DNA from: a virus
Virus record (IMG/VR): IMGVR_UViG_3300009180_000262
Coordinates: 1 to 21,157 of that record
Length of the DNA stretch: 21,157 nt
Direction: 5' to 3' (one strand)
Part shown: positions 16,809 through 19,403 of the stretch, in pieces
How the letters are laid out: each line of letters opens with the position of its first letter
Position numbering within the stretch: the first letter of the stretch is position 1
The notes under the pieces: generated by a model
Databases searched by the model: none
What the model was told of the DNA's origin: nothing
What the model saw: the letters and a program-made list of their open reading frames with translations, nothing else
Program-made: the position numbers and the translations under genes

Positions 16809-16826
16809 TATACACAATGACGTGTA
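16801..16826 (+). promoter_or_regulatory. Overlapping inverted repeats, candidate operator for pqqA
   Basis: TGTATA-CA-TATACA (16801-16814) is a perfect 6-bp-arm palindrome over the candidate -10 box. TACAC-AATGAC-GTGTA (16811-16826) is a second, overlapping one with 5-bp arms, just at the expected transcript start. Two palindromes stacked on a promoter suggest a regulator binding site. The protein is unknown; one of the two nearby winged-helix proteins is a candidate. Confidence 0.4.
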
Positions 16827-16846
16827 TAAATTTTAGGAGATCTATC

Positions 16847-16918
16847 ATGTGGACAAAACCAGCAGCTACTGAAATGCGTTTCGGCTTTGAAGTAACTATG
16901 TACGTTTGCAATCGCTAG
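16847..16918 (+). CDS. pqqA: PqqA, pyrroloquinoline quinone precursor peptide
   Basis: A complete 23-residue peptide that starts [14 protein letters not shown] and continues EVTMYVCNR. PqqA is the ribosomal precursor of PQQ: PqqE (radical SAM), with the chaperone PqqD, crosslinks the Glu and Tyr of the E-x3-Y motif, and PqqB, PqqC and a protease finish the cofactor. Here Glu15 and Tyr19 are intact, and length and flanks (MWTKP start, GFEVTMY core, NR end) match bacterial PqqA. Position 21 is Cys where the family usually has Ala or Ser. AGGAGA is six bases before the ATG. No other pqq gene is in the window, so host PqqB-E would be required. It is the sole plus-strand gene between minus-strand genes, with its own flanking signals. 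PQQ serves methanol and other quinoprotein dehydrogenases, so a methylotrophic host is likely. Confidence 0.93.
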
Positions 16919-16949
16919 ACAAACAGGGGATTAACCATCCCCTATCTAG
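16915..16949. terminator. Hairpin between pqqA and the convergent leftward operon
   Basis: Inner arms AGGGGAT (16925-16931) and ATCCCCT (16937-16943) with a 5-base loop, plus outer arms CTAGA (16915-16919) and TCTAG (16945-16949). It overlaps the stop codons of both convergent genes. On the minus strand the stem is followed by GTTTGTCT, a modest T-rich tail, so it fits a terminator of the leftward transcript best. On the plus strand there is no T run, though the hairpin could protect the pqqA message. Confidence 0.6.
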
Positions 16950-18274: not shown

Positions 18275-18664
18275 TTAAAACGGAATATCTGATTCAATTT
18301 CATCTAGTGGTTGATTCTGGTATCCGTTTGCTTTGCTGGCTTCTCTTGGTGCTGAATCTTTCTTACCTAGCAGAGTTACGTTGTTCACCAAGCACTCTAA
18401 AGACGATTTATTTGATCCATCCTTAGCAACATATTCATTCAAAGAAATCTCGCCTGTAATCGCTACCTGTGATCCTTTATTGAGCATTGGTGCAAGTGTT
18501 TCACCACGTTTACCAATAATGTTGCAACGTAGCCATGTCGTTTTCTTTCTATCACCATAACCAGATGACAAGGCAAAGCTAAAACTTGCAATGGCTGTAC
18601 CTTCTTTAGTGAAGCGAACTTCTGCATCTGATCCGATGTTGCCTACTGCGTTTAAGTTATTCAT
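18275..18664 (-). CDS. ssb: Single-stranded DNA-binding protein
   Basis: 129 residues. The OB-fold signature is clear: MNNLNAVGNIGSDAEVRFTK, then GTAIASFSFALSSG, TTWLRCNIIGKRGETLAPML, KGSQVAITGEISLNEY and NNVTLLG. A Gly/Gln-poor linker follows and the acidic C-terminal tip ends DIPF, the standard SSB docking tail for partner proteins. It coats single-stranded DNA during replication and recombination. Its ATG overlaps the stop of the small gene before it (ATGA), and the annealing protein gene lies one gene upstream, forming a recombination/replication unit. Slightly shorter than typical bacterial SSB, as common in phages. Confidence 0.95.
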   Translation of the reverse strand: MNNLNAVGNIGSDAEVRFTKEGTAIASFSFALSSGYGDRKKTTWLRCNIIGKRGETLAPMLNKGSQVAITGEISLNEYVAKDGSNKSSLECLVNNVTLLGKKDSAPREASKANGYQNQPLDEIESDIPF

Positions 18665-18792
18665 TTGTTGCCTTTCTTAATTATAGTTGCTAATAAATAC
18701 TTGTTGCCTAAGTATTGAATTGCTGCTTTCAATTTGTTTTCATGCTCTTTGTTTAGAAGAGTTGTCATTCCGTATAGTGATGTGATAATCAT
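18661..18792 (-). CDS. Small coupled ORF between annealing protein and ssb
   Basis: 43 residues (MIITSLYGMTTLLNKEHENK, then LKAAIQYLGNKYLLATIIKK). The ATG uses the last base of the upstream stop (TAATG) and its stop overlaps the ssb start (ATGA), so it is tightly locked between two real genes. A second start at Met9 is possible and would give 35 residues. Helical and basic; no motif recognised. Coupling suggests a true gene acting alongside SSB and the annealing protein. Confidence 0.6.
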   Translation of the reverse strand: MIITSLYGMTTLLNKEHENKLKAAIQYLGNKYLLATIIKKGNK

Positions 18793-19403
18793 TATTTACC
18801 TTTCAATGATTCAGCGTGTTTTTTAAGTGTGCTGCGTGTCTTGCTATCCAATAAAGTCCATACAGCGAGTTTCTCTTCATTGAGTAATGTTGTCGTTTTC
18901 CCATAAGCATCCTCAATGTGTCCACCAGCAACATCACCAATAATATCAATTGCAAGGTCTTTAATAAACTGTTGTGATTCCTCATCTAAATTCTCCATTG
19001 CACCAGCCGTAGGTGTGATTGCTTTTGGTGCTTGTACTTTATCTTCCTCTGGTACATCTTCACCAGCATAAATGTACAAACCTAGACCATGTAATGCAAT
19101 TGCTTTAGCTAGGCATCGCTGCATCGCTGTATTGACTGCCATGCTGTCTGGGTTAGGGATACTCTTGTTCCTATAATCCATAACTGGCAACTGAGATGTC
19201 ATGGATTTACCGAACGCTGTTACTGTACAGAACACCATCAAGGTTTCACCAAACTTAACTGGCTCACCATAAGACCATGTTGCTGCTGGATCTTGCATCA
19301 GTAACTGGTCAACTGCCCATGCCCATGACAGGTAAGTAAGATTGTTTTTCTTCTCTGTATGTGCGTTTACGTTAATTGCTCTTAATACTTGATAATTACT
19401 CAC
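18792..19403 (-). CDS. DUF1071-type single-strand annealing protein (Sak3-like)
   Basis: 203 residues. The sequence NLTYLSWAWAVDQLL near the N-terminus, VMDYRNKSIPNPDSMAVNTA, then MQRCLAKAIALHGLGLYIYA and GEDVPEE form the diagnostic core of the DUF1071 family, which has been grouped with phage single-strand annealing recombinases (Sak3-type). Such proteins anneal SSB-covered strands during phage recombination and genome maintenance. The C-terminal ~75 residues are helical and less conserved. The start is GTG at 19403 with AGGAG six bases ahead; the family-like start MSNYQVLRAINVNAHTEKK supports it. SSB is encoded two genes downstream, consistent with partnership. Confidence 0.88.
   Translation of the reverse strand: MSNYQVLRAINVNAHTEKKNNLTYLSWAWAVDQLLMQDPAATWSYGEPVKFGETLMVFCTVTAFGKSMTSQLPVMDYRNKSIPNPDSMAVNTAMQRCLAKAIALHGLGLYIYAGEDVPEEDKVQAPKAITPTAGAMENLDEESQQFIKDLAIDIIGDVAGGHIEDAYGKTTTLLNEEKLAVWTLLDSKTRSTLKKHAESLKGK

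Follow-up and report, generated by a model that had tools for sequence, protein, structure and literature searches.

The DNA analysed here is a 21,157-base IMG/VR virus record, itself a fragment, and this whole stretch is referred to below as the window. On its plus strand, at positions 16847-16918, lies a gene of 23 codons and a stop that encodes PqqA, the precursor peptide of PQQ, as recognized from its translation, from profile searches and from its identity with host peptides. By searching the window peptide against two curated PqqA models, the identity put forward in a preliminary description of this DNA was confirmed. The Pfam model PqqA (PF08042) matched at all 19 of its 19 positions with an E-value of 6.3e-11 and 42.4 bits (cut-off 21.1), and the NCBIfam equivalog TIGR02107 matched with an E-value of 5.8e-12 and 45.1 bits (cut-off 20), so that the peptide scores approximately twice the cut-off of both. 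The translation also contains the GFEVTMY core that had been pointed out, with Glu15 and Tyr19 four positions apart; in PQQ synthesis, PqqE joins the Glu and the Tyr of PqqA. A Shine-Dalgarno sequence, AGGAG (16835-16839, plus strand), lies 7 nt upstream of the ATG, in agreement with the ribosome binding site claimed earlier. A chance open reading frame is ruled out, because all 80 of the 80 viral core matches examined are full PqqA genes and because pN/pS is 0.21 over 33 viral genes. The window gene is therefore confirmed as a genuine full-length pqqA, and crosslinking of its peptide by PqqE/PqqD, followed by maturation to PQQ, is predicted.

Both flanks of the gene contain candidate signals. 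Directly 3' of the stop codon, a hairpin of the form AGGGGAU...AUCCCCU (16925-16943, plus strand; dG -10.2 kcal/mol, z -2.8) may mark the 3' end or the terminator of a single-gene transcript; it has no T-run, and no canonical T-run terminator was found in the scan. Approximately 20 nt upstream of the ATG lies the inverted repeat TACACAATGACGTGTA (16811-16826, plus strand), the single such site in the whole window. About a dozen other phages (for example P19250A, L027, L052 and L057) have an identical or similar repeat ahead of pqqA, including types unlike the window, P19250A among them, and a palindrome of this type stands upstream of 14 of 148 viral genes versus 2 of 128 host genes. It is possible that the palindrome is a shared operator or promoter element, which we offer as a lead; the stronger idea of a conserved phage promoter was reduced to this lead, since only those 14 viral copies are preceded by the palindrome. 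No convincing sigma-70 promoter was found adjoining the window pqqA. The best explanation of this arrangement is that pqqA forms a small accessory cassette with its own ribosome binding site and its own 3' hairpin.

The genes of the window include those for virion structural proteins, a metallophosphoesterase, a VanY/M15 peptidase, an SSB and a Sak annealing protein. On one side of pqqA are the Sak annealing protein (18792-19403, minus strand) and the SSB (18275-18664, minus strand), and on the other side are virion structural and peptidase genes, as the preliminary description had it in placing the gene between SSB/recombination and structural functions. Viral genes therefore stand on both sides of a host-type pqqA, and the pqqA of cultured isolates is embedded in the same way. 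No integrase was recognized among the window genes scanned, and the notion that pqqA serves as an integration site was set aside, as none was recognized near it. At the DNA level, no match to the window was found among phages, so relatives were taken from protein comparisons: the closest named relatives of the stabilisation protein are the OM43 phage Venkman and the spring podovirus MW202481, and those of the phosphoesterase are MEP402/MEP401. The window is a fragment of a Venkman-like, small podovirus-type phage.

None of pqqB, C, D and E is found in the window fragment, and the earlier remark that no other pqq gene is present is limited to that fragment, because the record has only 21,157 bases. 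The same absence holds more widely: pqqB-E are beside pqqA in 0 of 147 viral loci (window included), and PqqE was not found above the cut-off in any of 50 viral records. On the other hand, 29 of 120 host pqqA loci have at least one of pqqB-E. These counts bear out the earlier view that the phage supplies only the gene for the substrate peptide.

With a pattern for an 11-residue stretch of the peptide, the GTDB species genomes retrieved belonged for the most part to Methylophilaceae, the others being bins with names at higher ranks only. Since ten of those Methylophilaceae-type genome stretches encode the window peptide without a change and the gene differs from the nearest host copies at only 4 of 72 bases (68/72 nt identical), the host is very likely a Methylophilaceae methylotroph; the closest isolates are Methylophilales phages, and the methylotroph host proposed earlier accords with these results. 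All 159 of the 159 Methylophilaceae genomes searched contain pqqA, in 1 to 12 copies (two or more in 151), and scattered solo copies occur in the host genomes. Similarly, 3-12 pqqA copies have been described in Methylophilaceae, with the other pqq genes typically in single copy (PMC4109929), and a methanol-grown PQQ production strain, also a methylotroph, has five pqqA copies with very different expression levels (PMC9851590).

A tblastn search of the peptide against 50,697 phage records matched twelve of them: nine isolates with Methylophilales or Methylophilaceae hosts (Venkman, P19250A, MEP301, MEP401, MEP402 and four Melnitz), the spring podovirus MW202481 and two contigs named 'Acinetobacter phage MD-2021a' (CAKLQF020000010.1, CAKLQH020000055.1). 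We left the last two out of the phage evidence; CAKLQF020000010.1 (L008), the one examined, is bacterial chromosome with pqqABCDE, fur and ppk. The PqqA of the isolates is 77-87% identical to the window peptide, and the nine come from the PqqA search itself, with HIM624-A, MEP431-434 and EXVC038S outside the count. In the matched phages, pqqA is either unannotated in GenBank or covered by an antisense ORF call; its length of only 23 codons is why it was missed in the nine cultured methylophages. IMG/VR was searched with a degenerate DNA pattern that fixes the GFEVTMY core, and at least 120 stretches match, the 80 examined among them. The frame is thus conserved in related phages, isolates as well as IMG/VR relatives, though only part of them carry it.

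No convincing similarity in terminase (TerL) or capsid links MEP401, P19250A, MEP301 and the Venkman/MW202481 group to one another, and Melnitz is T4-like; pqqA is therefore carried by at least five distinct phage lineages. The annotated large terminases and capsids of P19250A (KX815270, L331) and Venkman (MT375522, L332) are without meaningful blastp similarity. These two phages have been described as one genus-level cluster (PMC8163748). It was also observed that P19250A_0031 (L004), annotated as a diguanylate cyclase/phosphodiesterase, adjoins pqqA at the place of an exonuclease in Venkman and MW202481; because the three neighbourhoods have just one protein in common, a pqqA-flanking one of about 205 aa, this annotation looks wrong.

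A second viral PqqA type was observed in 20 contigs (L012, L021, L026, L032, L552-L567) of 36-48% GC, whose host is probably another PQQ-producing group. None of the 20 loci contains pqqB-E, which suggests that phages of other PQQ users also carry the precursor alone; among the 50,697 phage records, tblastn with the window peptide matched no phage of other PQQ-using hosts.

Selection was assessed on 33 distinct viral pqqA genes found by profile or tblastn, since core conservation in the pattern-found set is circular, the pattern itself fixing GFEVTMY. The pN/pS of 0.21 over the 33 genes includes three divergent forms, without which it is 0.17; on the codons outside the search pattern, the pattern-found viral set gives 0.27. 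Glu15 and Tyr19 are invariant in 33 of 33 genes. Three of these have a changed core (GMEITAY or GFEVTAY) in which the Glu/Tyr spacing is unchanged, and these variants still match TIGR02107. Viral pqqA is under purifying selection and is not a decaying capture, and the low pN/pS together with the invariance of the two residues joined by PqqE argues that the peptide is retained for its chemistry.

The gene is nonetheless patchily distributed. Many of the records compared being fragments, pqqA was found in 15 of 38 window-type records and in 11 of 42 MEP401- and P19250A-type records; among window-type records of at least 33 kb, it was found in 7 of 12. In two comparisons, the relative without pqqA retains flank-like DNA and no remnant of the gene. 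Because many relatives are without pqqA and close ones can lack the cassette cleanly, the gene is accessory and dispensable for the phage. Of the earlier claim of a phage gene, what stands is that it is genuine and conserved in relatives; it is not fixed, being an accessory cassette in only part of them. In addition, when the window is compared with L507, the two sequences are almost the same over the 3' half of pqqA, the hairpin and the DNA beyond it, but diverge over the 5' half of the gene, which points to recombination within pqqA.

Such patchiness and such a breakpoint, together with hosts full of donor pqqA copies, are what would be expected if pqqA were a near-neutral passenger, that is, a genuine gene with its own signals that recombines between phages and has no selected role in infection. 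This seems rather unlikely to us, since the peptide is under purifying selection, unrelated lineages carry the gene, with genomes of 35-43 kb among them, Glu15 and Tyr19 are retained even where the core changes, and no pqqB-E have been carried along.

We regard it as probable that pqqA acts as an auxiliary gene, one that provides nothing but the substrate consumed in PQQ synthesis and so supports methanol oxidation during infection; its expression, processing and benefit are inferred. The phage gene would be expressed during infection of a Methylophilaceae methylotroph, host PqqE/PqqD would join Glu15 to Tyr19 in its peptide, and the product would be matured by the remaining host Pqq enzymes to PQQ for methanol dehydrogenase. 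The extra copy may thus keep PQQ supply and methanol oxidation going while the phage replicates. Each PQQ uses up one PqqA molecule, and pqqA is the only pqq gene that the hosts themselves multiply, so one more copy would be a cheap way to this end; expansion of the consumed precursor alone is thus the hosts' own habit, which the phages follow. We infer that precursor supply would be limiting for PQQ during infection. The marginal benefit is not obvious, however, because the hosts already hold several copies, and pqqA dosage need not limit PQQ, as the five copies of one strain are expressed very differently (PMC9851590). The broader proposal, that unrelated methylotroph phages repeatedly acquired only the RiPP precursor because precursor dosage, not enzyme, limits PQQ, is tentative, and we would give it slightly less than an even chance.

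Among the viral records, G251 (IMGVR_UViG_3300025120_009955; L051, L550/L551) was observed to be a T4-like-looking phage contig of 72,356 b with pqqA and an unusually complete C1-oxidation gene set. It also encodes a complete methanol dehydrogenase, whose nearest PDB match is XoxF, and formate dehydrogenase alpha, together with IscU and IscA, thioredoxin and a CsgG gene for curli secretion; it is among the 50 records without PqqE. The co-occurrence of pqqA with methanol dehydrogenase points to boosting and speaks against a decoy function, in which phage PqqA would occupy host PqqD/PqqE and lower PQQ-dependent oxidation in the host. A decoy would fit the encoding of the substrate peptide alone and the few variants that depart from the usual core (GMEITAY, L501 and L502). 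Nevertheless, with a window peptide identical to host PqqA and with the crosslinked residues conserved, we consider it very unlikely.

A role in the lysogen, as a moron-type conversion gene rather than one of the lytic cycle, is also very unlikely. That pqqA is a unit of one gene, on the other strand from the neighbouring replication module, is compatible with it, as are the Cro/CI-type regulators in Venkman and MW202481, but no integrase was recognized among the window genes scanned, and host numbers fall sharply with isolates such as MEP401/402 (PMC10580990).

The reading that we prefer, supply of the PQQ substrate during infection, allows a clean test of the idea that phages steer host C1 oxidation by feeding a cofactor pathway its substrate. 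Carbon flow in lakes and coastal seas, where Methylophilaceae are important methanol oxidisers, could be affected. Venkman, MEP301, MEP401, Melnitz and P19250A are in culture with their hosts, which makes the hypothesis testable now. The medium used for OM43 in PMC9004378 has 1 nM PQQ in it, and this supply might hide any benefit of the phage gene.

Compared with known systems, the window gene is closest to the PqqA of Methylophilaceae, with which it shares an identical 23-aa peptide, 68 of 72 nt, the Glu15/Tyr19 core and an occurrence as solo, dispersed copies; it differs in its phage setting, with recombination genes to one side, structural genes to the other and no pqqB-E. The pqq operon (pqqABCDE), in which pqqB-E stand beside pqqA, is seen neither in the window nor in the viral loci. 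Like cyanophage psbA, an energy-related auxiliary metabolic gene thought to sustain host energy metabolism in infection, pqqA is host-derived; its product, in contrast, is a consumed RiPP substrate and not an enzyme or a photosystem protein. The isolated methylophages carry the same peptide type as the window, and their gene was overlooked in GenBank annotation; in the open-licence PMC literature, the isolate papers make no mention of pqq genes in phages. The earlier suggestion that a viral PqqA might be unreported does not hold, because PqqA in a T4-like virus population was described in 2020, along with methanol dehydrogenase, among the predicted Methylophilaceae viruses VP_266 and VP_139 of Lake Baikal, where it was proposed to raise PQQ (PMC7678222). 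The likeness lies in a viral PqqA and predicted Methylophilaceae hosts, and G251, with methanol dehydrogenase and pqqA, belongs to the same theme; the difference is that both Lake Baikal populations are T4-like and have methanol dehydrogenase, whereas the window, a fragment of small podovirus type, has pqqA alone. Relative to the open-licence PMC literature, what is new is that small methylophages of podo- and siphovirus type carry pqqA as a solo gene, that it recurs across distinct lineages and that there is a second PqqA type, so that beside the Lake Baikal case the window provides a new instance of a gene that is apparently widespread in methylophages.
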